From positions 1 to 29,252 of the IMG/VR virus record IMGVR_UViG_3300042900_000515: DNA of 29,252 nt; one strand, written 5' to 3'. This stretch comes from a virus. Under the pieces are notes generated by a model, which was given only the letters and a program-made list of their open reading frames with translations, did not search any database and was not told the DNA's origin. Made by a program: the position numbers and the translations under genes. Positions 7,772 through 26,951 of the stretch are shown in pieces (position 1 is the first letter of the stretch; each line of letters begins with the position of its first letter).

Positions 7772-10700
7772 ATGGGATTTGATAGTAGAAAAAAATCGGG
7801 TAATATAATCGGGGGGTCAAGACTTAATGTTATTGGTCAGGGGATTTATAATGTGAAAATTATCCCACCTGGATTTACTAAGCGTTTACCTGCGTATGCC
7901 GATGCTGGTGGAAACCCACCAAGTCAAACACCAAGTAACACTCCAACTCAAACTCCAACACTATCAATAACCCCATCAAATACGCCAACACCTACATATA
8001 CTCCAACACCAACTCAAACTGCAACACCATTATATTGTGATTTTAGTTATTATGTTAACGCAATCACTCCAACTCCAACATCAACATCATTAGCGTGTGA
8101 TTTCACATATGAAGTCGAATTATTTACAAATACCCCAACACCAACCCCAACACCAACTCCAACACAAACAATAACACAAACACCAACACAAACTGAGACG
8201 CCAACACAAACACCAACACAAACTGAGACGCCAACACAAACTCCAACACCAACACAAACTGAGACGCCAACACAAACCCCAACACAAACCCCAACATCCT
8301 CTCCATTACCACCAACAGTTGAGTATTTCCAAGATTGTTGTGATAGTCTTACCGTATATAAAGTTGGTGGTGTATCAACCCCTATTATTGTTGGTAACAC
8401 TTATTACATCAACACTGATGGATTTAGTGGTTGTGGGACTGCGGTAAGTGGTCCACCATATAATAGTCAATCTTTAATTATTAGTGTTACATCATACTCA
8501 AATTGTGTTCTGTGTGAGGTAGACAATCCTTGCCCAACACCAACACCAACACCAACAATGACAGTAACACCAACAAATACTCAAACCCCAACGGTTACAC
8601 AAACACCGACGGTTACTCAAACACCAACTAATACACCAACAAATACTCAAACCCCAACTAATACACTTACACCTACACCTACTCCAACAGTTTGTATTCC
8701 ACAAATGATATATAGTGGTGAAAAATTTATTAATATACCACTTCATACTAGTGCGTCTTTCAAACCGGATGGTACGATATTATATATTGCAATTCATAAT
8801 GGTTCACCAACTGATAGTGTATGTGCTTATTCATTATCAACACCGTGGGATGTTTCAACAATTACATTACCACTAATAGGATGTTCAATTGCTGTTCCGG
8901 TAATTTCCGGATTAACCCCTACTAGTGTAATTGGTCATCATTTTTCACCGGACGGTAGTAAATTATTTGTAGTTGAGACAGCATCAAAAAGTGTCCTTAG
9001 ATATATATTATCAACATCGTGGGATGTTACAACATCTAGTTATTCACCCGGTGACTTATTTACTATAGTTGGTTTAACTCCGTCACATATTGATTTTACC
9101 CCTGACGGTTTATTTATGTTTGTTACTGTTACGGGTAGCCTTCTTAAAAAATATAGTTTAACCACACCTTGGGTTATAAATACGGGGGTTGTGGAAATTC
9201 AATCAATTTCCAACTCAATTGTTTCCGATTTTACTTTTCAAAATAGTGGAACTTATTTGTTTTCAATAGTATCAGGTCCAAGTATAAGAAGACAAACACT
9301 ATCTACACCGTATGATTTAACTTCAATTGTTCCTGTTTTAACTCAGACAGAAAATGTAAGTAGTTTTATTTCAGGAGGTAATCTTTATTCTCTTAATTTT
9401 AAAGATGGTTATAAAGGGTTTATTGGTGGTTATTACTCAACCGGTTTGAACGGAATTACAGCTTTTAATCTTACCTGTGAATACGATATTAGCGGGACTT
9501 TAATATTACCAACACCTACTCCAACACCAACTCAGACGGTTACACCAACCAATACAGTTACTCCAACACCAACATTACCACCATCGTTTGTTTCAGTATG
9601 GAGAACAACAACACCATCTGAAAGTATTACATTACCATATTCACCATCAGGAACATATAGTGGAACAATAGATTGGGGCGACGGTAGTATATCCGCTAAC
9701 ACATATGCAAATAGAACACACACATACTCATTATCAGGTAATTCTACTGTTACAATTTATGGAACAACTAATGGTTGGGCGTTTGGTAATACTGGTGACA
9801 TATTAAAAATTAGAGAAGTTTTAAAATGGGGACCATTAAAAATTAGTAATGGTGCTCAAGTTTTTAGAGGATGTAGTAATTTAGTATTGACTGGTGTTAC
9901 GGACACTATTGATTTAACAAGTGTTAATAATTTAATTTATATGTTTGGAGGTTGTTCATCTCTTACAACCATCAACAACGTTAATAGTTGGAATGTTTCA
10001 GGAATTACCGTTATGAGTAATATGTTTCAATCATCAACTTTTGACGATGATATAAGTTCTTGGAGTGTTTCAAATGTTACAGATATGAATCGTATGTTCC
10101 AATTTGGAGCATTTAACCATAATATAAATTCGTGGAATGTTTCAGGGGTTACAAGTATGGAAAATATGTTTAGACAATCTTCTTTTAATCAACCATTATC
10201 AGGTTGGAATGTTTCAAAGGTTACATCTACTATGGCAGGTATGTTTGATGGAACCTTATTTAACCAAGATATAAGTATGTGGAATGTTTCAGGGGTTACA
10301 AGTATGAGTGGTATGTTTAGATACACCCCATTTAATTATTCTCTTAATAATTGGAATGTTTCAAAGGTAACAAATATGTCTAATATGTTTTATGGTGCGT
10401 CATTTAATTTACCATTATCAGGCTGGAATGTTTCAAAGGTTACAAATATGAATTCTATGTTCGCATCAACTTCACAATTTAACCAAAACATTAATTCGTG
10501 GAATGTTTCAGGTGTTACAGATATGGGTTCTATGTTTTATCAAAACGCATATTTTAACCAACCATTATCCGGATGGAGTGTGTCAAACGTTAGAAATATG
10601 TCTTTTATGTTTTACAATTCACCATTTAATTATCCTATTGGTAATTGGGATGTTTTAAATGTTACAGGAATGACATCTATGTTCCAAAGTTCATCATTTA

Positions 10701-10960
10701 ACCAAGACATCGGAAATTGGAATATATCGGGAGTAACCAATTTCACTGATTTTATGTTTGCAAAAACACCGATTACATTCTCAACAATAAATTTAGATTC
10801 TATTTATAATGGATGGCAAACCAAAACACCGCAAACCGGATTAACAATTAATTTTGGTTCTGCAAAATACACATTAGCGAGTCAACCGGGTAAAGATATA
10901 CTAACAGGTTCAACTATGAGCGGTGGATATGGTTGGACAATAACAGATGGGGGGATATAA
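7772..10960 (+). CDS. Large modular fibre/adhesin-like protein with beta-propeller and BspA (DUF285) repeats
   Basis: 1062 aa. Residues 1-47 form a basic, Gly-rich N-terminus (IIGGSRLNVIGQGIYNVKII) different from that of the sister genes. Thr-Pro-Gln-rich linkers cover about 48-182, 255-307 and 579-604. A Cys-containing domain (about 183-254, EYFQDCCDSLTVYKVGG) is shared with the 15827-18949 protein. Residues 308-578 hold repeated [FS]-x-P-D-G-x-x-[LM]-[FY] and LST[PS]WDVST units, typical of beta-propeller repeats in phage fibres. A PKD-like domain has IDWGDGS near 632-638. About 11 BspA-type repeats (W-[NSD]-V-S-x-V-T-x-M) span about 725-990, then a C-terminal cap ending GGYGWTITDGG. With no signal peptide or anchor, it is more likely a virion protein that binds a cell-surface polymer than a cell adhesin. 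Confidence 0.8.
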   Translation: MGFDSRKKSGNIIGGSRLNVIGQGIYNVKIIPPGFTKRLPAYADAGGNPPSQTPSNTPTQTPTLSITPSNTPTPTYTPTPTQTATPLYCDFSYYVNAITPTPTSTSLACDFTYEVELFTNTPTPTPTPTPTQTITQTPTQTETPTQTPTQTETPTQTPTPTQTETPTQTPTQTPTSSPLPPTVEYFQDCCDSLTVYKVGGVSTPIIVGNTYYINTDGFSGCGTAVSGPPYNSQSLIISVTSYSNCVLCEVDNPCPTPTPTPTMTVTPTNTQTPTVTQTPTVTQTPTNTPTNTQTPTNTLTPTPTPTVCIPQMIYSGEKFINIPLHTSASFKPDGTILYIAIHNGSPTDSVCAYSLSTPWDVSTITLPLIGCSIAVPVISGLTPTSVIGHHFSPDGSKLFVVETASKSVLRYILSTSWDVTTSSYSPGDLFTIVGLTPSHIDFTPDGLFMFVTVTGSLLKKYSLTTPWVINTGVVEIQSISNSIVSDFTFQNSGTYLFSIVSGPSIRRQTLSTPYDLTSIVPVLTQTENVSSFISGGNLYSLNFKDGYKGFIGGYYSTGLNGITAFNLTCEYDISGTLILPTPTPTPTQTVTPTNTVTPTPTLPPSFVSVWRTTTPSESITLPYSPSGTYSGTIDWGDGSISANTYANRTHTYSLSGNSTVTIYGTTNGWAFGNTGDILKIREVLKWGPLKISNGAQVFRGCSNLVLTGVTDTIDLTSVNNLIYMFGGCSSLTTINNVNSWNVSGITVMSNMFQSSTFDDDISSWSVSNVTDMNRMFQFGAFNHNINSWNVSGVTSMENMFRQSSFNQPLSGWNVSKVTSTMAGMFDGTLFNQDISMWNVSGVTSMSGMFRYTPFNYSLNNWNVSKVTNMSNMFYGASFNLPLSGWNVSKVTNMNSMFASTSQFNQNINSWNVSGVTDMGSMFYQNAYFNQPLSGWSVSNVRNMSFMFYNSPFNYPIGNWDVLNVTGMTSMFQSSSFNQDIGNWNISGVTNFTDFMFAKTPITFSTINLDSIYNGWQTKTPQTGLTINFGSAKYTLASQPGKDILTGSTMSGGYGWTITDGGI
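7916..8316 (+). repeat. Thr-Pro-Gln low-complexity tract
   Basis: The plus strand is made almost wholly of A, C and T (units like ccaacacaaact) and encodes TPTQT-type repeats with two short Cys-containing interruptions (CDFSYYVN, CDFTYEVEL). Two shorter tracts in the same gene lie at about 8533-8694 and 9508-9585. It probably encodes an extended, stiff or glycosylatable linker. Confidence 0.85.
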
Positions 10961-10963
10961 TAT

Positions 10964-13375
10964 ATGGGAACAATTTTAAAAATATTATCAATAAATTACG
11001 ACGGACAATTCGCCGACATTACCTTTTACCCTTGTTCGGGTGGGAGTATTAATATCGGTGAAGTTAACTTACCATATAATTATTATTCGGAAAATTACTA
11101 CGGAACATATAACATTTATTTACTTGATTCGGGTAAAACTTGTTTGTTAAATGTTCCTTGTTTAACACCTACGCCTACTCCAACAACAACAATGACATTA
11201 ACTCCAACAAATACTCCAACACCAACAAACACACCCGCACCAAATTGTGATTTATTAGGTTTAGATATTACAACCCCAACCCCAACTCCAACACCTACAA
11301 TGACACCAACACCAAGTTCTACACCATTATTACCATTTATATCTGTGTGGAGAACAACATCTCCGTCTGAGAGTATAACATTACCTTATTACGGTTTAGA
11401 TTATTCAGGAACCATTGATTGGGGTGATGGAAATTTTTCGGCGAATACATTTGCAAATAGGACACATATTTATACAACTCCTGATGACTATGTAATAACT
11501 ATTACAGGTAAAGTTAATGTGTGGTCGTTTTATTATACACCAACAAGTAAACTTAAAATAAGAGAAATAACACAGTGGGGATGTCTTAACATAACTCAAC
11601 TATCATATAATTTTTATGAGTGTTCTAATTTAATATTAACAGGTGTTACTGACACTCTAAATTTATCTCAAGTGACAAATTTAACATATATATTTCGTGG
11701 ATGTTCGTCTATTACAACCATAAATAATATTAATAATTGGGATGTTTCTAACATTACAGGTATGTCAGGAATGTTTGGTCAAAGTAATTTTAACGATAAC
11801 ATTAATAATTGGGATGTTTCGGGAGTTGAGGATATGAGTTATATGTTCCAAGGAGCAACATCTTTCAACGAACCATTATCTGGTTGGACTGTTTCAGGTG
11901 TTACAAATATGTCGAATATGTTCCAAGGAACAACATCTTTCAACCAACCATTATCAGGTTGGAACGTTTCAAATGTTGCGTCTATGACATATATGTTCCA
12001 AAATTCACAATTTAATCAAGATATTAATAATTGGGATGTTTCAAGTGTTATTTATATGAATTATATGTTTAACGGCACACCGTTTAATCAACCGTTGTCA
12101 GGTTGGAATGTTTCAAATGTTACAAGTACGTATTATATGTTTGCTAGCACCCCATTCAATCAACCAATCGGAAATTGGGATGTCTCAAAAGTGGTTAATA
12201 TGGAGGGTATGTTCCAAAACGCAACATCCTTCAACCAACCAATTAATAATTGGAATGTTTCAGGAGTTACCAATATGACATCAATACTCCAAAGCACTGA
12301 TTTCAACCTACCATTATCCGGATGGAATGTTTCAAATGTCTATAATATGACTTTTATGTTTGCCAATTCACCATTCAATCAACCAATTGGGAATTGGAAT
12401 GTTTCGGGTGTTACAAATATGGTAGGTATGTTCCAAGGAGCAACATCGTTCAATCAACCATTATCCGGATGGAATGTAAGTAACGTTAATAGTATGAGGC
12501 AAATGTTTAATACTGCTACCGACTTTAACCAACCTATTGGGTCTTGGAATGTTTCGGGGGTTACAGATTTGGGTTATATGTTTTATGCGTCATCATTTGA
12601 CTATCCATTATCTGGGTGGAATGTTTCAAAAGTTACAGATATGACTTATATGTTTGCCAATTCCCCATTCAATCAACCAATCGGAAATTGGGATGTCTCA
12701 AAAGTTAAAAATATGTCAGGTATGTTTGTCAATACATCATTTGATTATCCGATTGGGAATTGGACTGTTTCAGGGGTAACAAATATGAGTAATATGTTTC
12801 AAAACGACCAATATTTTAATCAACCATTATCTGGATGGAACGTCTCAAATGTTGTTGATATGACATCTATGTTCCGAAATTCACAATTTAATCAAGATAT
12901 TAATAATTGGGATGTTTCAAGTGTTATTTATATGAATTATATGTTCGCATCTTCCCTATTTAATCAACCATTATCCGGATGGAATGTTTCAAATGTTGGT
13001 GATATGAACAATATGTTTTATAATTCGGAGTTCAATTACCCTATTGGAAATTGGGATGTATCTAATGTTGTTAATATGAACAATATGTTTAATATTAATA
13101 CATATTTTAACCAAGATATTGGAAATTGGAGTATATCAAATGTAACTAATTTTACTGACTTTATGTTAGGTAAAACACCATTAACATTCTCAACAACAAA
13201 TTTAGATTCAATCTATAGTGGATGGTCAACTAAAAATCCGTATACAGGAAGAACAATAAATTTTGGAAGTGCTAACTACACAATATCCGGAGGACAACCA
13301 GGTAAAAATACATTAACGGGTTCAACTATGAGTGGAGGATATGGTTGGACAATAACTGATGGAGGAGGAATTTAA
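10964..13375 (+). CDS. Fibre/adhesin-like protein with 20 BspA (DUF285) repeats
   Basis: 803 aa, starting 3 nt after the previous stop. Residues 1-65 are the shared N-terminal domain (ILSINYDGQFADITFYPCSG, then INIGEVNLPYNY), present also at the start of the next three genes and probably the anchor to the virion. A short TP linker covers about 67-124 and a PKD-like domain about 125-185 (IDWGDGNFSANT). About 20 repeats with the core [NGS]W-[NDT]-V-S-[NGSK]-V-x-x-M lie within about 245-735, tending to alternate FNQPLSGWNVSNV and FNQPINNWNVSGV types. The cap (about 735-803) matches that of the neighbours (LDSIY.GW.TK, INFGSA, GSTMSGGYGWTITDGG). BspA repeats form leucine-rich-repeat-like solenoids that bind host or matrix ligands; a receptor-binding role is inferred. 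Confidence 0.8.
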   Translation: MGTILKILSINYDGQFADITFYPCSGGSINIGEVNLPYNYYSENYYGTYNIYLLDSGKTCLLNVPCLTPTPTPTTTMTLTPTNTPTPTNTPAPNCDLLGLDITTPTPTPTPTMTPTPSSTPLLPFISVWRTTSPSESITLPYYGLDYSGTIDWGDGNFSANTFANRTHIYTTPDDYVITITGKVNVWSFYYTPTSKLKIREITQWGCLNITQLSYNFYECSNLILTGVTDTLNLSQVTNLTYIFRGCSSITTINNINNWDVSNITGMSGMFGQSNFNDNINNWDVSGVEDMSYMFQGATSFNEPLSGWTVSGVTNMSNMFQGTTSFNQPLSGWNVSNVASMTYMFQNSQFNQDINNWDVSSVIYMNYMFNGTPFNQPLSGWNVSNVTSTYYMFASTPFNQPIGNWDVSKVVNMEGMFQNATSFNQPINNWNVSGVTNMTSILQSTDFNLPLSGWNVSNVYNMTFMFANSPFNQPIGNWNVSGVTNMVGMFQGATSFNQPLSGWNVSNVNSMRQMFNTATDFNQPIGSWNVSGVTDLGYMFYASSFDYPLSGWNVSKVTDMTYMFANSPFNQPIGNWDVSKVKNMSGMFVNTSFDYPIGNWTVSGVTNMSNMFQNDQYFNQPLSGWNVSNVVDMTSMFRNSQFNQDINNWDVSSVIYMNYMFASSLFNQPLSGWNVSNVGDMNNMFYNSEFNYPIGNWDVSNVVNMNNMFNINTYFNQDIGNWSISNVTNFTDFMLGKTPLTFSTTNLDSIYSGWSTKNPYTGRTINFGSANYTISGGQPGKNTLTGSTMSGGYGWTITDGGGI
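11164..11336 (+). repeat. Short Thr-Pro linker tract
   Basis: A-C-T-rich coding tract giving TPTPTPTTTMTLTPT and TPTPTPTMTPTPS, split by a Cys-containing island (CDLLGLDI). It has the same style as the longer linkers of genes 7772-10960 and 15827-18949. Confidence 0.75.
12001..12069 (+). repeat. 69-bp perfect direct repeat, copy 1
   Basis: Identical base for base to 12877-12945, 876 bp (292 codons) downstream in the same frame. It encodes NSQFNQDINNWDVSSVIYMN and then YMF, two flanking repeat pieces. Perfect nucleotide identity amid diverged repeats points to recent duplication or gene conversion within the array. Confidence 0.9.
12877..12945 (+). repeat. 69-bp perfect direct repeat, copy 2
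   Basis: Second copy of the block at 12001-12069. Recombination between the two copies would delete 876 bp in frame and shorten the solenoid by 292 residues. Confidence 0.9.
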
Positions 13376-15826: not shown

Positions 15827-18800
15827 ATGAGTACAACTTTAGAAATATTAACTGCGAATTATAACGGACAATTAGCCGATATAACCTTTTTCCCTTGTTC
15901 GGGGGGGGTTATAAATATTGGTGAAGTTACATTACCGTATAATTACGAATCCGAAAATTATTATGGAACTTACATTATTTACGTAATGTATTACGATGAA
16001 ACTTGCTCGTTGGATATTCCTTGTATATCATTAACACCGACAAATACACCGACAAATACACCGACACCTACTATTACAGATACTCCAACTCAAACACCAA
16101 CTCAAACTAATACTGTTACACCAACTAATACTGGAACACCAGCACAAACCCCAACACAAACGACAACGCAGACACAAACACAAACACCTTCCAATACAGC
16201 TACACCTACTAACACTATCACTCCAACTCAAACTCCAACTAAGACTCATACTCCCACACCAACAAATCGCCCTACAACAACACCAACAATGACACCAACA
16301 AATACTCCTACACAAACAAATACTCAAACAAATACGCCAACAAATACGCAAACGCAAACACAAACGCAAACTCAAACCACTACACAAACTCCGACTAACA
16401 CTCCAACACAAACACAAACTCAAACACAAACACCGTCACCATTACCTCCAACAATTGGGTATTTTGAAGATTGTTGTTACCCATCTATAATATATAAAGT
16501 GGGTGGAATAATATATCCTGTTTTTATTGATAACTTCTATTATATAGAGACTACCGGATATAGTGGTTGTGTTAAAGCAATAAATCCTACGTCATTTAAC
16601 AGTCAATATGAAATTATTAGTTTAACTTCATATGTGAGTTGCCTTATTTGTCAATTAGACCACGAATGTATTTTACCTACACCTACACCAACTCCAACTC
16701 AAACTGTGACTCCAACGGTAACGCCAACAGTAACTCCAACAATTTCAACAACACCAACAAATACTCCTACACAAACACAAACACAAACTTCAACACCAAC
16801 ACAAACACCTACCAATACACCAACAAACACTCAAACACAAACTCAAACACAAACACAAACTCAAACTTCAACACCGACACAAACACCTACTCAAACTCCG
16901 ACTAACACTCCAACCAAAACTCAAACTCCAACAACAACAACGACATTAACCGCAACACCAACTCAGACTCAAACTCCAACAAACACTCAAACACCAACAA
17001 AAACTCAAACACCAACACCAACAAAAACAATGACTCAAACACCTACTAATACTCAAACACAAACACCAACCAAAACTCAAACACAGACGCCTACAAACAC
17101 ACCAGTTTGTTCAGCACCTCAAATGTTAGGTGTTACATTGTCATCAGGTTCAATTTTATCTGTTTCGATTATTCCGGGACCAAATTGTAGTGGTATTTTT
17201 ATGATATATTCTTATGATAATATAAACTTTAATTCTGCTGTGGCAACTCCAAGTAACTGTACATCACCGTTTACTTTTGACTCTCTTACTACAACAGGAA
17301 ATGTTTATGTAAAAGTGGGTCAATTATGTACATCAGGTGGTATTAGCGCATATTCTGAAGTTTTCCCATATTTCTTCCCAACCCCAACTCCGACACCAAC
17401 ACCAACAAATACACAAACGCCTACTAAAACTCCAACCAACACTCCAACTAAAACTCAAACCCCAACAACAACAACAACATTAACTGCAACTCCGACTCAG
17501 ACTCAGACGCCAACTAAAACTCCTACTAACACTCCAACCAAAACACAAACACAAACTCCAACTAAAACTCAAACTCCAACAACAACAACAACATTAACTG
17601 CAACTCCGACGCAAACACAAACGCCTACTAAAACTCCTACACAAACACCTACTCGAACAAACACTCCAACGCCAACAACATCGTGTGGTGTTACATTAAT
17701 TTCTACCACATATGTTTCAGGAACCACTTGGAATTATAATTTCACAACAGCAGGTTCTTGTGGAACACTTTTACCGGAATATTCGTCTGATAATATAACT
17801 TGGACTTTGGGTGGTGCAGGTGGTTGTACTTCACCTAGGTCGGCAATAACCGGTATTAATAGTGGAACAATATACTTTAGAATGACATTATTTTGTTCGT
17901 CTCTTACGGGAGTTTCAAATGTTATTACTTATGTGTTCCCATCACCAACACCTACACCTACAAGAACTCAAACACCAACACCAACAAAAACACCTACACC
18001 TACACCGACTGAAACACCACCTGGAGTAACTTGTGTATGTTATGAATTATATTGGTCTCCACCAGGTGGTCCTTTCTTTGGTTCAACAACTTTTGATTAT
18101 ATTGATTGTGAAGGGTTCCCTGCAAGTTCCTTTGCTAACAATATGGGTGATTCACCGAATATTTGTGCTCAAGAAAACACTATTTCATTTGGCGGTGGTG
18201 ACAATTCAGGTGGTTGGCTTCCATCAATATATAATTGTTGCGCAACAAATATTACATTAGGATATAGAGTGTCAAATGCTGTATGTTCGTTACCTGGTTG
18301 GGCGTTAGTTAATCAATGTATAAATCGTTCCGCAATTTTAGGTTTATGTGACGCAACCGAATTATATGATGATGATATATCCGGTAATTGTACCTTCGCA
18401 TTTGCAGCTGCGGGTTATTATAAAACCACTGATAACTTTAGTAGAAGATATTGGGATGGAACCGCATTTACGGGTGCTTGTTTTTCGTGTGGTTGTTTAG
18501 TTGTTAATACAGTAATAACATTATCTGATGGTTCAACTAAATTAATACAAGATGTTCAAGTTAACGACATACTTAAATCTATTGATGTTTCAGGAATGCC
18601 ACAACCATCAAACGAATGGTACTCTTGGAGTAGTGACACTTTAAATTATGTAGAATCAACCTCTACAGTAATTAATTTTACAATATATGAATTTGATTCG
18701 GTTATTAATATTAATAACGATAAATTAATTGCGACTGATTCTCATAACCACGTTGTTAAACAAAATGGTGTTTGGTATATCAGAACAACATCTGATTTAA

Positions 18801-18949
18801 ATGTTGGTGATGTATTATTAGATATTGACAATACTGAATTTGAAATCACATCATTAGTGACAATTACAGAATCAACAACAGTTTATAACGTTGATGTGAA
18901 TAATAGTAATTTATATTTTGCGAATAATGTCTTAACTCACAATAAGTAA
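15827..18949 (+). CDS. Thr-Pro-rich modular fibre-like protein with C-terminal Hint domain
   Basis: 1040 aa. Order: shared N-terminal domain (1-65, ILTANYNGQLADITFFPCSG); TP/TQ linker (about 69-207); Cys-containing domain (208-281, GYFEDCCYPSIIYKVGG) shared with gene 7772; linker (282-426); Fn3-like beta domain (427-518); linker (519-618); second Fn3-like domain (619-705); short linker; Cys-rich domain (732-889, near CVCYELYWSPPGG); Hint domain (890-1040). The Hint begins CLVVNTVITLSDGSTKLIQD, has the block-B motif TDSHNH and ends YFANNVLTHNK, with only one residue after the terminal Asn. No BspA repeats are present. It starts 20 nt after the stand-alone N-domain gene. A self-processing virion fibre or tip protein is the best reading; the cleavage or ligation outcome is unknown. 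Confidence 0.8.
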   Translation: MSTTLEILTANYNGQLADITFFPCSGGVINIGEVTLPYNYESENYYGTYIIYVMYYDETCSLDIPCISLTPTNTPTNTPTPTITDTPTQTPTQTNTVTPTNTGTPAQTPTQTTTQTQTQTPSNTATPTNTITPTQTPTKTHTPTPTNRPTTTPTMTPTNTPTQTNTQTNTPTNTQTQTQTQTQTTTQTPTNTPTQTQTQTQTPSPLPPTIGYFEDCCYPSIIYKVGGIIYPVFIDNFYYIETTGYSGCVKAINPTSFNSQYEIISLTSYVSCLICQLDHECILPTPTPTPTQTVTPTVTPTVTPTISTTPTNTPTQTQTQTSTPTQTPTNTPTNTQTQTQTQTQTQTSTPTQTPTQTPTNTPTKTQTPTTTTTLTATPTQTQTPTNTQTPTKTQTPTPTKTMTQTPTNTQTQTPTKTQTQTPTNTPVCSAPQMLGVTLSSGSILSVSIIPGPNCSGIFMIYSYDNINFNSAVATPSNCTSPFTFDSLTTTGNVYVKVGQLCTSGGISAYSEVFPYFFPTPTPTPTPTNTQTPTKTPTNTPTKTQTPTTTTTLTATPTQTQTPTKTPTNTPTKTQTQTPTKTQTPTTTTTLTATPTQTQTPTKTPTQTPTRTNTPTPTTSCGVTLISTTYVSGTTWNYNFTTAGSCGTLLPEYSSDNITWTLGGAGGCTSPRSAITGINSGTIYFRMTLFCSSLTGVSNVITYVFPSPTPTPTRTQTPTPTKTPTPTPTETPPGVTCVCYELYWSPPGGPFFGSTTFDYIDCEGFPASSFANNMGDSPNICAQENTISFGGGDNSGGWLPSIYNCCATNITLGYRVSNAVCSLPGWALVNQCINRSAILGLCDATELYDDDISGNCTFAFAAAGYYKTTDNFSRRYWDGTAFTGACFSCGCLVVNTVITLSDGSTKLIQDVQVNDILKSIDVSGMPQPSNEWYSWSSDTLNYVESTSTVINFTIYEFDSVININNDKLIATDSHNHVVKQNGVWYIRTTSDLNVGDVLLDIDNTEFEITSLVTITESTTVYNVDVNNSNLYFANNVLTHNK
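16031..17106 (+). repeat. Long Thr-Pro/Thr-Gln tracts (two, split by a Cys domain)
   Basis: Tract one spans 16031-16449 and tract two 16672-17106. Both are built of codons for TPT, TQT and NTP with a plus strand almost free of G. Small units (acacaaactcaa types) repeat imperfectly, so replication slippage could change linker length without breaking frame when multiples of 3 or 6 nt are gained or lost. Confidence 0.85.
17381..17680 (+). repeat. Thr-Pro/Lys-Thr-Gln tract with internal duplication
   Basis: The unit TPTTTTTLTATPTQTQTPTK is encoded twice within about 130 bp (near 17460 and near 17576), and a related copy sits at about 16927 in the previous tract. A last short tract lies at about 17941-18020. 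The near-identity suggests recent spread of linker units. Confidence 0.8.
18494..18946 (+). other. Hint (intein/hedgehog-like) autoprocessing domain
   Basis: Residues 890-1040 of the preceding protein. Block A begins with the nucleophile Cys890 (CLVVNTVITLSDGSTKLIQD). Block B holds LIATDSHNHVV with the conserved T-x-x-H, then DLNVGDVLL. Blocks F and G are VYNVDVNNSNLYFANNVLTHN, with the penultimate His and last Asn. At 151 residues there is no room for a homing endonuclease. Only Lys follows the Asn, so a protein splice would release a single-residue C-extein. N-terminal cleavage or transfer of the fibre to a nucleophile, as in bacterial intein-like (BIL) and hedgehog domains, is more likely. 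Confidence 0.85.
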
Positions 18950-19013: not shown

Positions 19014-20900
19014 ATGGAAAATAATGAAAATAATGATTTAACGGTTTGGCAAAGGTTATCAAGAGCCTTTGGACCAAACGCGTTATTAAATCAAGACTAC
19101 CCAACATATAAGTTAGATAAGAAAGAGTTGTTAAAGACAACATCACAAGCGGAATATGAAAGAGAAAAATTACAAGCTCAACAAACATATTACCTATCTA
19201 ACCAATGGACTAAGATTGAAAGTAATCTATACACTCAAGCAGTTTATTATGAACCAACTCGTTTGGCTTCATTTTACGATTATGAATCTATGGAATACAC
19301 CCCTGAGATATCAGCGGCATTAGACATCTATGGTGAAGAATCAACAACTGTTGATGAGAATGGATATATGTTACAAATTTATTCTGAATCAAAAAGAATA
19401 AAATCTATACTAGCCGATTTATTCAATAACGTATTAGACGTTAATACGAATTTAACTATGTGGACAAGAAATACTTGTAAGTATGGTGATAACTTTGTTT
19501 ATTTAAAATTAGATTCAGATAAAGGTATTGTTGGTTGTATGCAATTACCAAACATTGAAATAGAACGTTTGGAAAGAGGTATGGCAGCAAAATCTGCAAC
19601 TATAGATGAACCTGCAGAACACAAAGGATTAAGATTTAAGTGGAAGGCAAAAGATATGGAGTTTAACTCTTGGGAAGTTGCCCACTTCCGTTTATTAGGT
19701 GACGATAGAAAACTTCCATACGGAACGTCAATGTTAGAAAAAGCAAGACGTATTTGGAAACAATTATTATTATCGGAAGATGCGATGTTAATTTATAGAA
19801 CTTCAAGAGCACCGGAAAGACGTGTGTTCAAAGTATTCGTTGGTAATATGGATGATAAAGATGTTGAGGCTTACGTACAACGTGTTGCAAACAAATTTAA
19901 ACGTGACCAAGTTGTTGATGCTAAAACAGGTAATGTCGATATGAGATTCAACCAAATGGCTGTTGACCAAGATTACTTTATTCCTGTTAGAGACCCAGCG
20001 GCGGCATCACCAATTGATACGTTACCGGGAGCAACAAACTTATCTGAAATTGCCGATATAGAATATATCCAAAAGAAATTATTAACCGCTCTTCGTGTTC
20101 CTAAAGCATTTTTAGGATTTGAAGAAACTGCCGGTGATGGTAAGAATTTATCATTACAGGATATTCGTTTTGCAAGAACAATCAATAAGATTCAAAAATC
20201 AATGATTGCCGAATTAAATAAAATTGCAATCATTCATTTATTCTTATTAGGGTTTGAAGATGAGTTATCTAACTTTACGTTAGGACTAACCAATCCATCA
20301 TCCCAAGCAGATTTATTAAAGAATGACCTTTGGAAAGAAAAAATTGCATTATACCAACAAGCCGTTGCGGCAATTGCGGGTATTGCTCCGGTATCTGTAT
20401 CGTGGGCTAAGAAACATATTTTAGGATTCTCTGATGAGGAAATCAAACTTGATTTACAACAACAAAGAATTGAGATGGCTGTCGGAGCTGAATTAACAAA
20501 TACGGCAACTATCATAACACATACAGGTATCTTCGATAATATCGATAAATTATATGGTAACCCTGCATCCGGAGCAACTGCCGGTGGTGCGGCACCATCA
20601 TCCCCACCACCACCGGGAGGTGGAGGAGGTTTCGGCGGAGGTGGAGACTTAGGTGGAGGAATGGAAGATTTAGGTGGACCTGAACCAGGACCTGAACCGG
20701 GTGGACCTGAACCGGGTGGAGCCCCTGAGGCGGCAGCTCCCGAAGCAGAAGTAACTCCTGAATCATTTAATAGAGATAATTTAAAAATATTGGTAGAAAG
20801 AAGTAATATGACAGAAGATGATTCATACATTGATTTATCCAAAGGTGGAAACTCTTTAGGAGAAATTGAAGCTCAATTAGGTAAACTTCTAAAAGATTAG
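19014..20900 (+). CDS. 20: Portal vertex protein (gp20-like)
   Basis: 628 aa against about 524 in T4. It forms the dodecameric ring at the packaging vertex. T4-type signatures include YTPEISAALDIYGEESTTVD near residues 96-115, FRLLGDDRKLPYGTSMLEKA, the strongly conserved RTSRAPERRVFKVFVGNM (about 262-279), TLPGATNLSEIADIEYIQKK and ALRVPKAFLGFEE. After about residue 520 a Gly/Pro-rich low-complexity tail (GGGGGFGGGGDLGGG, then PEPGPEPGGPEPGG) of about 60 residues is inserted. It is followed by a short C-terminal helix-forming segment (LGEIEAQLGKLL). That tail has no T4 counterpart that I know. The stop is TAG, and the next gene follows after a 22-nt gap with a TATTTATA element. Confidence 0.95.
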   Translation: MENNENNDLTVWQRLSRAFGPNALLNQDYPTYKLDKKELLKTTSQAEYEREKLQAQQTYYLSNQWTKIESNLYTQAVYYEPTRLASFYDYESMEYTPEISAALDIYGEESTTVDENGYMLQIYSESKRIKSILADLFNNVLDVNTNLTMWTRNTCKYGDNFVYLKLDSDKGIVGCMQLPNIEIERLERGMAAKSATIDEPAEHKGLRFKWKAKDMEFNSWEVAHFRLLGDDRKLPYGTSMLEKARRIWKQLLLSEDAMLIYRTSRAPERRVFKVFVGNMDDKDVEAYVQRVANKFKRDQVVDAKTGNVDMRFNQMAVDQDYFIPVRDPAAASPIDTLPGATNLSEIADIEYIQKKLLTALRVPKAFLGFEETAGDGKNLSLQDIRFARTINKIQKSMIAELNKIAIIHLFLLGFEDELSNFTLGLTNPSSQADLLKNDLWKEKIALYQQAVAAIAGIAPVSVSWAKKHILGFSDEEIKLDLQQQRIEMAVGAELTNTATIITHTGIFDNIDKLYGNPASGATAGGAAPSSPPPPGGGGGFGGGGDLGGGMEDLGGPEPGPEPGGPEPGGAPEAAAPEAEVTPESFNRDNLKILVERSNMTEDDSYIDLSKGGNSLGEIEAQLGKLLKD

Positions 20901-20922: not shown

Positions 20923-21639
20923 ATGAACTTCGGTATATTAAAAACAAAAATAGAAAGAGTGTTGTTAGAATCATACGCTAACGACACATTTAAAGACGAA
21001 ATAAAAAATTTCAAAAAATATGTTTTAGAAAACAAAAACATAAGTAAATTATTTTATTTATACGATGAATTAAATTCTCCAAAAGCATTAAGTGAATCTT
21101 ACGCCAGAGAGTTTATTAACGAAAGTATTAAAATGTATGAGAACACAATCAATAAAATCAAGCAATCTGATTTAAATAAAATAAAATCTTGGGTTGGTAA
21201 TAAACAGATAGAGAATCAATATGAGACTATCGATACGTTGTTTTCTTCAGATATATTAACGATTGAATCTAAAATTAAATGTAGAAACATTCTGTCAGAA
21301 TCTCTTAGAAAATTACCGGTGGTGAAAACAGAAGGGATTGATTTACCGTTAACAACAATGGTAAGTGTTGCAAACAAAACTATTAAAAGTTATATTGATG
21401 GTTTAACTGAATCTGACAAAAAAGAATTAATGTCTTTATTGTCTGAAGATGATTCAACATTGAATGAAAAATACGTTACACTTAAAGAAGGTGTAGTTAC
21501 GAAACTAACGGAAATGAAGAATGCTAGCACTGATTCAACAATGCAAATAAGAATTGAGGATACTATCTCAAAAGTAATTTCTGAAAAATACGACAAACTT
21601 ACGTACTTCAAACTTAAAAACCTTAAAGAAAATCTTTAA
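20923..21639 (+). CDS. Hypothetical protein between portal and protease, 238 aa
   Basis: No family recognised. It is a strongly helical, Lys/Glu/Ser-rich protein throughout (LKTKIERVLLESYANDTFKD at the start; SEKYDKLTYFKLKNLKENL at the end), with no Cys-rich, membrane or signal region. In T4 the small core proteins gp67 and gp68 sit between portal and protease, so a prohead-core role is a positional guess only. Its stop overlaps the stop of the antisense bS21 gene by 3 nt (tail-to-tail), and transcription beyond it runs antisense into that gene until the hairpin at 21687-21716. Confidence 0.65.
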   Translation: MNFGILKTKIERVLLESYANDTFKDEIKNFKKYVLENKNISKLFYLYDELNSPKALSESYAREFINESIKMYENTINKIKQSDLNKIKSWVGNKQIENQYETIDTLFSSDILTIESKIKCRNILSESLRKLPVVKTEGIDLPLTTMVSVANKTIKSYIDGLTESDKKELMSLLSEDDSTLNEKYVTLKEGVVTKLTEMKNASTDSTMQIRIEDTISKVISEKYDKLTYFKLKNLKENL

Positions 21640-21830
21640 TTATCGTCTGATTTAAATTTTTTCTGAACATACTTAGCTTTTGAAAGACCATCACGTTTAA
21701 TTACTGATGGTTTTTTAAATTCTTTTCGTTTTGATAATTCAGAGCTTTGACGGGTTTTAATTACTTTACTTTTATAGAGTTTTAGAGCTTTCTCAATCGT
21801 AATGTGATTATTTAATTTTACTATTAGCAT
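21636..21830 (-). CDS. rpsU: Phage-encoded ribosomal protein bS21
   Basis: 64 aa, the normal bS21 size. It begins MLIVKLNNHITIEKALKLYK, matching the bS21 pattern (short strand, then a 'KALKRYKRK' helix), and continues SSELSKRKEFKKPSVIKRDG, the family's 'ElrrReffeKPSvkRre' core. It ends LSKAKYVQKKFKSDDN. The start at 21830 is favoured because Bacteroidota bS21 proteins usually begin MLII-/MLIV-. Tyr54 sits in the 'KAxYxQ' motif; the tyrosine at this place in Flavobacterium bS21 has, as I recall, been placed next to the 16S rRNA anti-SD. bS21 is the last small-subunit protein to assemble and acts in initiation. It lies antisense between late head genes, with a strong SD of its own. Confidence 0.85.
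   Translation of the reverse strand: MLIVKLNNHITIEKALKLYKSKVIKTRQSSELSKRKEFKKPSVIKRDGLSKAKYVQKKFKSDDN
21687..21716 (+). terminator. Candidate Rho-independent terminator antisense to bS21
   Basis: ACCATCA (21687-21693) pairs with TGATGGT (21705-21711) across an 11-nt loop and is followed by six T in all (21711-21716). For plus-strand transcripts coming from the portal unit this would stop synthesis about 50-75 nt beyond the stop at 21639, inside the body of bS21 (antisense). The 7-bp stem is modest and the bases also encode bS21, so chance is possible. Confidence 0.4.
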
Positions 21831-21833
21831 ATA

Positions 21834-21852
21834 CTACATATATCTCCCTCCT
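21834..21852 (-). promoter_or_regulatory. Strong Shine-Dalgarno with ATG-TAG start-stop pair ahead of bS21
   Basis: Read on the minus strand, AGGAGG (21852-21847) is followed by 7 nt, an ATG (21839-21837) and at once an in-frame TAG (21836-21834). Three bases later comes the bS21 ATG (21830). The SD is ideally placed for the start-stop pair but 16 nt from the true start. No other non-coding gene leader in the window carries such an SD. The layout suggests initiation or re-initiation control of bS21. Confidence 0.6.
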
Positions 21853-21924
21853 ACAAAAAAGTTTTGACATTACCCATAAAAACACCTATTATTTTTAAAA
21901 ATAAACAGGAAAATATGAAAATTA

Positions 21925-22418: not shown

Positions 22419-23144
22419 ATGAATTTAAGAATATTACAACCAAGTGAATCAGGGAAAGGTATATTAGTTGAATACGATGCTGGGTATATTAACCCAAATG
22501 ATAATCGTAACGAAACATTAATTAGAGAATCTAGCGAAACTCTTGACCACACTAAACCAATTGAGTTTTATGCCGTATTACAAAAATATGATACCCCTAA
22601 TAGAAATGGTAGATTATATCCTGAACGTATATTAAAAAGAGAGGCGGAGAATTATAAAAAAATGATTAAAAAGGGAACAGCCCTATCCGAGTTAAATCAC
22701 CCGGAATCATCTTTAATCGATTTAGATAGAGTTTCTCACGCAATCACCGAAGTATGGTGGGAAGGTAATGTCCTAATGGGTAAAATAAAACTACTTACAT
22801 CACCGGGATATCACGAAAGTGGTATTTGTTCAACCAAAGGTGACTTAGCAGCTAACTACCTAAGACAAGGAGTTACATTAGGTATCTCATCAAGAGGTGT
22901 AGGTTCCCTTAAAAAGATTGGTGAACAAAATGAAGTTCAAGACGATTTTGAATTAATCTGTTTTGATTTAGTATCATCACCATCAACCCCGGGAGCGTAT
23001 CTATTCTTAAATAAAGAGGATAAACAACTATACGATGAGAACTTAGAAGAAGAGAAAAAAATGAGTGTTGAGAGACACGTTGGTGATTCCGGAAATAAAT
23101 CGCTTGACTTAATGAAAAAATTAAACGATTATTTGGGTTACTAA
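22419..23144 (+). CDS. 21: Prohead core protease (gp21-like serine protease)
   Basis: 241 aa (T4 gp21 is 212). In T4-type phages it matures the prohead by cutting core and capsid proteins after an [IL]-x-E motif. Family signatures are NRNGRLYPERIL (about 60-71), ALSELNHPESSLIDLDRVSH with catalytic His94, VTLGISSRGVGSL with the nucleophile at Ser157/Ser158, and CFDLVSSPSTPGA with the likely third member Asp183. The fold is the herpesvirus-assemblin type (peptidase family S80/U9). The C-terminal 40 residues are charged and may be removed by self-cleavage. It precedes a DUF4494-like gene, the scaffold and the capsid gene, as expected for a T4-like order. Confidence 0.93.
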   Translation: MNLRILQPSESGKGILVEYDAGYINPNDNRNETLIRESSETLDHTKPIEFYAVLQKYDTPNRNGRLYPERILKREAENYKKMIKKGTALSELNHPESSLIDLDRVSHAITEVWWEGNVLMGKIKLLTSPGYHESGICSTKGDLAANYLRQGVTLGISSRGVGSLKKIGEQNEVQDDFELICFDLVSSPSTPGAYLFLNKEDKQLYDENLEEEKKMSVERHVGDSGNKSLDLMKKLNDYLGY

Positions 23145-25079: not shown

Positions 25080-26951
25080 ATGGGAGCATTATTAGAATCA
25101 GGATTAGTTGGTAACATCGGGTTAAAACACCTTAAAGTTATCAAAGAAGACACAATCAACAAATGGGATAAATTAGGATTCCTAGAAGGTCTTAAAGGAC
25201 ACATGAGAGAAAACGTAGCTCAGTTATATGAGAACCAAGCGTCTTTCTTAATAAACGAAGCTACAGGTGAAGGTTCAAACGGTTCATTCGAAACGGTTGT
25301 ATTCCCTATCGTAAGAAGAGTATTCTCTAAATTACTTGCGAATGAAATCGTATCAGTACAAGCTATGAACTTACCAATCGGTAAATTGTTCTTCTTCGTA
25401 CCTAAAATTCAAGGTTACCAATCAGGTCAAGAAACTATCTTAGGAACTCAATTAGGTGGTGGTACTCACTACGGACCAATTGGTGCGGCTGATGGACAAA
25501 CTGCGGCTGATGGTCAATCAGGAGCTGGTTACACAGGAGCAAACGCATTCAAGAAAAATCTTTATGATTTATTCTATGAAGGAAACGAAGGTCAATTAGA
25601 CCCTCCAGGATTGTTTGACTACTCTAAAGGACAATGGTCGGCAGTTACTAAACCAACAACAGTTATGGTTTGGTCAAATGGTAGTTTAGTTGTTGCTGAC
25701 GCAACTGCATTAGCTAACCAATTCAATGGAAAAAACATTAGAAAAGTAATCGTAGCATTATCAGGATTCACAACTGCTGGTACAGGTAAATTAATCGGAC
25801 CAGACGGTAATGAAGTTGATACTGAAACTTTCTTATCTGATTTAAGAATCTACAGTGATTCTACAACTGCATGGACTTCAACAACATCACCTTGTAGTGT
25901 TGTAAGTGGGTCTACCGGAATAAACTCATTATTGTTTAGAGTTGTTACTCAACAATATGGTGAAGGTATCGTTTCAGGATTAAACGGAAGAGGAACTACA
26001 TCATTTGCAACTACAGGTAATAACGGTACTTACAATGATACTTGTTCTCCTGCAGGAATCATCTACTTAGAAGTTGATTTATCTTGTCCAACTTGTCCTT
26101 CTTGTGGTGACACATTAGACGGTTATACAGGAACAACTATCGGAGTATTACCATCAACTGGGTTTACTGCTGTTTACAGACGTTACGCTGATATGGAATT
26201 TGAAGATAAAATCGGTGAGGTTTCTTTCGAATTAGATTCAGTTACTGTATCTGTTACAGAAAGAAAATTAAGAGCACAATGGTCTCCTGAGTTAGCTCAA
26301 GACGTTGCAGCTTTCCACAACATCGATGCTGAGGCTGAATTAACAGCTTTATTATCTGAACAAGTTGCGGCTGAAATCGACCGTGAAATCTTAAGAGATT
26401 TACGTAAAGGTGCGGCATGGAACTTACGTTGGGATTACAATGGTTGGAGAAGAATCTCTTCAACAACAAACTATACACAAAAAGATTGGAACCAAACTTT
26501 GATTACTGCAATTAACCAATTGTCAGCACAAATCCACAAATCTACTTTAAGAGGTGGAGCTAACTGGATTGTAGTATCTTCTGAGGTTTCAGCGATTATG
26601 GATGACTTAGAATACTTCCACGTATCTAATGCTTCACCTGAACAAGACCAATATAATATGGGTATTGAAAGAGTTGGAACATTAGCAGGACGTTACCAAG
26701 TATATCGTGACCCTTACTTCCCAGCTAACCAAGTGTTAATTGGACACAAAGGAACATCGTTACTTGATACAGGATACATCTACGCTCCGTATGTACCATT
26801 ACAATTAACACCTACAATGTACAACCCATTCAACTTTACACCGATTAAAGGTATAATGACTCGTTACGCGAAAAAGATGGTGAATAATAGATTTTACGGC
26901 AGAATTACTGTAGATGGTGTTAGAACATTCGATTTAAGAGAATTGAGATAA
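25080..26951 (+). CDS. 23: Major capsid protein (gp23-like)
   Basis: 623 aa (T4 gp23 is 521). It builds the hexamers of the head. T4-type landmarks are an N-terminal region with LYENQASFLINEATGEGS (50-67, cut site predicted after Glu60), then FPIVRRVFSKLLANEIVSVQ and AMNLPIGKLFFFVPKI. The central HK97-type core has VTERKLRAQWSPELAQDVAA, HNIDAEAELTALLSEQVAAE and IDREILRDLRKGAAWNLRW. The C-terminal part includes FHVSNASPEQDQYNMGIERV, GRYQVYRDPYF and GIMTRYAKKMVNNRFYGRIT. A Ser/Thr/Gly-rich insertion of roughly 100-150 residues (about 200-350) contains CPTCPSC (336-342). It is followed by a strong terminator. Confidence 0.95.
   Translation: MGALLESGLVGNIGLKHLKVIKEDTINKWDKLGFLEGLKGHMRENVAQLYENQASFLINEATGEGSNGSFETVVFPIVRRVFSKLLANEIVSVQAMNLPIGKLFFFVPKIQGYQSGQETILGTQLGGGTHYGPIGAADGQTAADGQSGAGYTGANAFKKNLYDLFYEGNEGQLDPPGLFDYSKGQWSAVTKPTTVMVWSNGSLVVADATALANQFNGKNIRKVIVALSGFTTAGTGKLIGPDGNEVDTETFLSDLRIYSDSTTAWTSTTSPCSVVSGSTGINSLLFRVVTQQYGEGIVSGLNGRGTTSFATTGNNGTYNDTCSPAGIIYLEVDLSCPTCPSCGDTLDGYTGTTIGVLPSTGFTAVYRRYADMEFEDKIGEVSFELDSVTVSVTERKLRAQWSPELAQDVAAFHNIDAEAELTALLSEQVAAEIDREILRDLRKGAAWNLRWDYNGWRRISSTTNYTQKDWNQTLITAINQLSAQIHKSTLRGGANWIVVSSEVSAIMDDLEYFHVSNASPEQDQYNMGIERVGTLAGRYQVYRDPYFPANQVLIGHKGTSLLDTGYIYAPYVPLQLTPTMYNPFNFTPIKGIMTRYAKKMVNNRFYGRITVDGVRTFDLRELR

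Follow-up and report, generated by a model that had tools for sequence, protein, structure and literature searches.

Does a ribosomal protein gene carried by a phage remain subject to the feedback that governs its counterpart in the host, or does it stand outside that circuit? The question is raised by a gene for ribosomal protein bS21 in IMG/VR virus record IMGVR_UViG_3300042900_000515, analysed here as a whole stretch of 29,252 bases (the window). bS21 is the ribosomal protein most commonly reported in phages (PMC9976891, PMC6375957), and in the host protein the residue at the position of Tyr54 stacks on A1534 of the 16S rRNA tail (PMC9976891). According to McNutt et al. 2023, ribosomes from which bS21 or its C-terminus is missing initiate faster on the host gene, rpsU, via its extended Shine–Dalgarno (SD) sequence, and worse on the SD-less messages that were tested (PMC9976891). 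As bS21-lacking ribosomes favour the extended SD of rpsU, bS21 limits its own synthesis, and the same authors speculated that this autoregulation helps the host to recover after infection (PMC9976891).

Related phage genes were described by Chen et al. 2022 (PMC9723584), who reported 47 phage genomes with a reverse-strand bS21 in a head-gene setting, Tyr54 in 54/61 cases and an invariable neighbour encoded on the opposite strand. Within this group, bS21 is reported to be transcribed at a late stage together with the structural genes, and highly so in situ, and changed residues in the N-terminal half of the protein were proposed to alter message choice (PMC9723584). The main text of that article makes no mention of a leader, promoter, autoregulation or untranslated region.

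Identity and divergence of the phage bS21

The original prediction had identified the 64-residue product as bS21 from its size, start and KPSVIKRD core, with a search against HMMs of the family as the proposed check. At family level the identification stands: the product matched Pfam PF01165 (Ribosomal_S21) with 30.4 bits (E 3.2e-07; cut-off 27) over residues 4-56, aligned to positions 2-54 of the 55 in the model, and its nearest solved chain was F. johnsoniae bS21, 7jil_z (phmmer, E 5.4e-08; residues 1-57 on 1-57). It did not extend to the naming level of the NCBIfam S21 equivalog model TIGR00030 (21.2 bits, below the cut-off of 28.95), and a PHROGs search with the protein returned zero matches at E 0.01, so that the window bS21 is best described as a diverged member of the family. 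A tblastn search over 50,697 phage records found six relatives, each below 60% identity (best E 2e-9), and the closest of the 71 distinct host proteins (from the best 80 of 570 matches) shared 28/64 positions with the window protein. The predicted model consists of helices at residues 12-34 and 41-59 (pLDDT 83, low pTM of 0.38); Foldseek retrieved three matches, all of them bS21 yet with weak E values of 7.4-8.8, and the best superposition (Z 3.4, rmsd 7.7 over 54) was unusable. Judged by its sequence, the ORF is a genuine but diverged bS21.

In the alignment to F. johnsoniae bS21, KPSVIKRD occupies residues 40-47 and a tyrosine falls at position 54, in agreement with the claim that Tyr54 sits in the motif that contacts the anti-SD, for which stacking on A1534 has been published (PMC9976891). 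By its aromatic residue 54 the window protein is assigned to the Bacteroidia type, with the A1534 contact taken from that work. Among the matches listed, residue 54 was aromatic in 146/148 distinct phage bS21 proteins (136 Y, 9 H and 1 F), the two others having an R and a gap. For comparison with hosts, the best 80 of 570 confirmed rpsU matches were used, a set that lies near F. johnsoniae by construction and holds a few records with odd organism labels (Rhizobium, Limnohabitans and Pelagibacter MAGs). The products of Flavobacteriales rpsU are like the phage protein in family, Tyr54 and length of 64 (PMC9976891), but differ from it in residues 21-28. Residues 21, 23, 24 and 27 were R, F, D and G in 71/71 distinct host proteins and residue 28 was T in 62/71 (best 80 of 570), whereas positions 21, 23, 24, 27 and 28 of the phage proteins were S in 128, V in 135, I in 138, R or K in 145 and Q in 112 of 148 among the matches listed. 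These phage–host differences, read from the alignments, are near-fixed, so the altered message choice proposed by Chen et al. has room. The bS21 of Pelagibacter phage HTVC008M, compared by description, is likewise phage-carried and was incorporated into E. coli ribosomes; it differs in its origin, since Mizuno et al. 2019 describe it as acquired from the alphaproteobacterial host, a Pelagibacter (PMC6375957).

Gene context and antisense placement

The claim that bS21 is embedded antisense in a head-gene cluster is borne out by the genes for portal, protease, gp23 and terminase around it (Table 1). The module is T4-like and comprises terminase, portal, protease and gp23 capsid genes, together with one that encodes DUF4494 and an acidic one that occupies the scaffold position.

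Table 1 Features of the bS21 locus, with positions numbered from the first base of the window
Feature	Position	Strand	Remarks
Portal protein gp20	19014..20900	+	PF07230, 3e-79
Convergent 238-aa gene	20923..21639	+	Stop overlaps bS21 stop by 4 nt
Phage bS21 gene	21636..21830	-	64-aa ORF, ATG start, Tyr54
Divergent intergenic region, bS21 (-) / CN (+)	21831..21924	.	94 bp
Conserved box TATATGTA	21835..21842	-	4 nt from ATG; putative variant late-promoter -10 element
SD-like AGGAGGGAG	21844..21852	-	GGAGG 16 nt from ATG; -12.5 kcal/mol
Conserved GTCAAAA (TTTTGAC on +)	21862..21868	-	Possible -33 element of divergent gene, suggested by alignments
Constant divergent neighbour (CN), 156 aa	21925..22395	+	Place of bS21_CN of Chen et al.
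Prohead protease	22419..23144	+	PF03420, 4.9e-24
Major capsid protein gp23	25080..26951	+	PF07068, 1.3e-74

The original prediction had also called the antisense placement unusual, which did not hold. Among the matches listed, 160 IMG/VR loci were collected, 80 via bS21 and 80 via the protease, many of them on shared contigs; bS21 was present in 152/160 and antisense in all 152, while the remaining 8/160 stop short of the bS21 site. The order portal, 238-aa gene, bS21, CN, protease held as far as each locus reaches, and 139 of these loci were complete. Three further scans (two at 80 loci each and one at 75) extended the set to 396 viral loci among the matches listed, many of them overlapping (227 distinct 700-nt contexts), with bS21 itself as the query for most and the protease for 80, and with the window included (as L001). 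A bS21 match was found in 388/396 of these viral loci, the other 8/396 being without one. CN was found in 365/388 bS21 loci and lay on the opposite strand in 365/365; some of the 23 loci with no detected CN are explained merely by contig ends. In 312/388 loci among the matches listed, bS21 and the convergent 238-aa gene have stops that overlap by 4 nt, and across this overlap (21636-21639) transcripts of the two strands should be complementary.

By gene order (TerL, portal, protease and MCP around an antisense bS21), the window belongs to the group of Chen et al., for which the placement is published (PMC9723584) and is the norm. It resembles these bS21 myophages (clades a-e) in the reverse-strand bS21 between two conserved hypotheticals, in the terminase, portal, protease and capsid surroundings, in Tyr54 and the divergent neighbour, and in the predicted Bacteroidetes hosts; compared by description, the bS21 gene itself shows no difference from that group (PMC9723584).

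In T4, small prohead core genes lie between portal and protease, the place taken by CN here. The CN product has a predicted alpha/beta fold (pLDDT 89.3), and comparison of the model with the PDB gave no clear relative (Foldseek E of at least 0.02; VIA Z of at most 7.6). Elsewhere in the window, two large genes at 7772-13375 contain DUF285 repeats (6 and 10 stretches) and low-complexity tracts of the PTPTPTQT type, and may perhaps encode adhesins or tail fibres. A Hint/intein-like stretch (CLVVNT ... LTHNK) was seen by eye at 18600-18949, at the end of the 1040-aa product of 15827-18949, for which a Pfam search gave no match.

An SD-like site upstream of bS21

On the bS21 strand, the 94-bp intergenic region reads GTCAAAACTTTTTTGTAGGAGGGAGATATATGTAGTAT-ATG and contains the SD-like AGGAGGGAG, and the original prediction had considered the leader unusual. 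Pairing energies were computed against the 16S tail ACACCUCCUUUCU, taken from five host genomes. Host rpsU leaders carry a strong SD, with 80/80 pairing at -13 kcal/mol or below (median -20.6) and a spacing of 7-11 nt from GGRGG to ATG in all 80 genes (best 80 of 570 matches). Phage leaders are without it: 0/132 distinct CN-linked leaders (a subset of 145 distinct phage leaders among the matches listed) reached -13 kcal/mol and the median was -0.7, with 5 at -10 or below and 12 at -8 or below, compared with 0/108 mock windows at -8 or below. The window's own site is the strongest among the CN-linked leaders listed. GGAGG occurred in 7/141 distinct phage leaders among the matches listed, 16 nt from ATG in all seven.

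Of the 145 distinct leaders among the matches listed, 144 had no signal of host strength. The single leader reaching -13 kcal/mol in this wider set, L322 (IMG/VR 3300012663_000707), has a host-like SD, AAAAAGGAGGTAGAGTC-ATG, at -13.6 kcal/mol, and its CN neighbour was not detected.

Conservation was assessed in a near clade of 39 distinct leaders among the matches listed, from phages with 70% identity or more to the window bS21, which were chosen by protein identity, not by the box described below. The mean information content was 0.59 bits over the columns of the SD-like site (-21 to -16) and 1.62 bits over those of the box (-13 to -5), with 1.35 bits for columns -35 to -22. A required SD would be expected to show the opposite pattern, so the weak conservation of this site counts against such a role. 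An earlier column count on 61 leaders pointed in the same direction, but those leaders had been preselected for the box, which is why their columns -11, -10, -8 and -6 are invariant, and it was superseded by the near-clade count, in which the contrast holds. Compared with an extended SD of the rpsU type (about -13 kcal/mol at a functional spacing), the window site falls short at -12.5 kcal/mol, with its 16-nt spacing and poor conservation. The SD leader was consequently dropped as the key feature of the locus, given that AGGAGGGAG is weakly conserved, wrongly spaced and probably absent from the mRNA, transcription being likely to start downstream of it; a special translational role for the leader was thus not confirmed. 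Selection may nonetheless act on the site, given its strong pairing in the window and the frequent purines at this position among near-clade leaders. This purine bias may instead belong to the promoter, since a G-run also lies just upstream of TATTTAT in 3/37 other genes with that motif 4 nt from ATG.

A promoter-like box and a predicted leaderless start

Between the SD-like site and the start codon lies a conserved promoter-like box, of which the 8-mer TATATGTA stops 4 nt short of the bS21 ATG, and the 7-mer TATATGT 5 nt short of it. A box of this class stands at the window's spacing in 35/39 distinct near-clade leaders among the matches listed, and more distant members have TATTTAT (L132, L156) or TATTTGT (L133, L135, L137, L143, L148) at the same place. 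The wider use of the motif was examined in two large relatives of 272,437 and 318,164 bases, with 269 and 313 genes (582 in total) that are longest-ORF calls with first-ATG starts, some of them wrong. TATTTAT tops the 7-mers enriched within 40 nt of starts (67/269 and 82/313 genes), and 7-mers of the host-type TATCTTTG rank next. It lies exactly 4 nt from ATG in 17 and 20 genes, compared with 0.28 and 0.35 for each offset between 30 and 89 nt; 4 and 4 sites fall at 5 nt and 1 and 3 at 7-12 nt, and a second hump occurs at 13-18 nt. The 37/582 genes with TATTTAT 4 nt before ATG (L242-L271) suggest, from this spacing, that some late genes of these phages are leaderless as a group. In the window, TATTTAT is found 4, 5 and 5 nt before the ATG of the genes starting at 451, 1022 and 27047. 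Total counts of TATTTATA in six records showed no overall excess over the reversed pattern, a control that overlaps the motif; what is informative about TATTTATA is solely where it stands with respect to ATG.

For F. psychrophilum, the reported position of the sigma-A box is -12 to -5 relative to the start site, with 5.5% of mRNAs leaderless (PMC9723704). Since the box at bS21 ends 4 nt before ATG, transcription is predicted from this spacing to begin with the A of the start codon, and in the window's clade the mRNA for bS21 would be leaderless or nearly so. The near box is missing in 75/145 distinct phage leaders among the matches listed, of which 29 carry TAnnTTTG at a greater distance, in many cases around -48, another 11 have TATTTAT within 45 nt and 35 have neither, counts that lack a chance baseline in this AT-rich DNA. 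Such leaders would probably be SD-less rather than absent.

Two other elements of the region were considered and set aside. The ATG-TAG at 21839-21834 is poorly suited as a regulatory start-stop pair, with relatives reading ATG-TAA, ATG-TAT, ATG-TTA or no ATG, and it lies inside the box. GTCAAAA was dropped as a -35 element of bS21 and may serve the divergent gene.

SD use across phage genes

SD-like sites of -7 kcal/mol or below precede 17/269 genes versus 39 in mock windows in one large relative, and 18/313 versus 36 in the other. Since G+C is higher in the mock windows (0.29-0.30) than upstream of genes (0.18-0.20), the comparison indicates no SD excess but does not amount to depletion. The original prediction that phage bS21 shifts initiation between leader types is thus left with no second leader type on which to act. 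Replacement of, or competition with, the host bS21 is plausible.

Proposed masking and escape from host feedback

On balance, we incline to the explanation that the phage makes, late in infection, an anti-SD-masking bS21 whose mRNA has no leader, or one without an SD, and is uncoupled from the SD-dependent autoregulation of rpsU. The protein would enter host 30S subunits late, and since aromatic residue 54 is retained, its Tyr54-type C-terminus should keep the 16S anti-SD tail masked, the state published as better for F. johnsoniae initiation on SD-less messages (PMC9976891). Phage genes have no SD excess in the two large relatives, so the phage should profit from ribosomes masked in this way. 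In the window's clade, a promoter of the late type placed directly against the start codon, with transcription predicted to begin at the AUG, would deprive the bS21 mRNA of most or all of its leader and of a functional SD. The gene would therefore stand outside the host circuit, in which the extended SD of rpsU is read by bS21-lacking and not by replete ribosomes, and should thus escape the feedback loop, while translation of host rpsU would be lowered. Homology, aromatic residue 54, the constant antisense context, the lack of a conserved extended SD and the near-leaderless promoter-like box all support this explanation, as does the late transcription reported for this phage group (PMC9723584). 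Against it stand the strength of the SD-like site in the window (-12.5), a box that is a variant of the late motif with its 7-mer at 5 nt, where the relatives show 4 and 4 sites versus 17 and 20 at 4 nt, the 75/145 distinct leaders listed with no near box, and the HTVC008M bS21, which left purified E. coli ribosomes about 5% active (PMC6375957).

The phage gene might alternatively be autoregulated like rpsU, with AGGAGGGAG as a working SD for bS21-lacking ribosomes and synthesis on demand until the ribosomes are replete. The mechanism is published for host rpsU (PMC9976891), the window leader has the strongest pairing among the CN-linked leaders listed, and GGAGG recurs at the same position in the few leaders that have it; however, the spacing of 16 nt in 7/7 is at odds with the 7-11 nt of the 80 host genes (best 80 of 570), the site is weakly conserved and lies upstream of the promoter-like box, and 0/132 CN-linked leaders listed fall in the host pairing range, which together make autoregulation improbable. 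Loss of ribosomal function, leaving an ornamental or decaying acquired gene, would fit the score below the NCBIfam equivalog cut-off, but is hard to reconcile with a constant place and strand in 152/160 loci (the other 8 end earlier; matches listed), the near-fixed residue 54 in 148 distinct proteins listed and the high in situ transcription in this phage group (PMC9723584); already disfavoured, it seems very improbable indeed. A third proposal, that of Chen et al. (PMC9723584), is that changes in the N-terminal half retune the ribosome to phage messages, beyond keeping it replete. The near-fixed differences at residues 21, 23, 24, 27 and 28 speak for it, but no phage-specific message feature for such a ribosome to recognise came to light, phage genes in the two relatives being, like those of the host, free of SD excess; we consider retuning unlikely, while noting that it is compatible with, not exclusive of, a masking bS21 uncoupled from host feedback.

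The bS21 gene itself is of a known kind and its placement is published for the group; the new part is its uncoupling from host feedback, for which the contrast between host and phage leaders is strong and the biology is our inference. No prior account of such uncoupling was found in the literature searched, which included work on leaderless phage genes and on late promoters in Flavobacterium, was mostly open-access and held no preprints. A tentative extension, about which we are more doubtful, is that these phages exploit the rpsU feedback itself: as phage bS21 fills the ribosomes, host rpsU, well read by bS21-lacking ribosomes only, would be switched off in trans, while the phage keeps the masking protein but not the SD, resulting in a one-way takeover.

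For similar loci, the window carries the caution that an AGGAGG before such a gene can be promoter-flanking DNA with no ribosome-binding role, and L322, with its host-like SD, offers a natural contrast for the feedback question. Together, anti-SD masking and rpsU feedback in the Bacteroidota make the benefit that a phage may draw from its own bS21 open to concrete assay.
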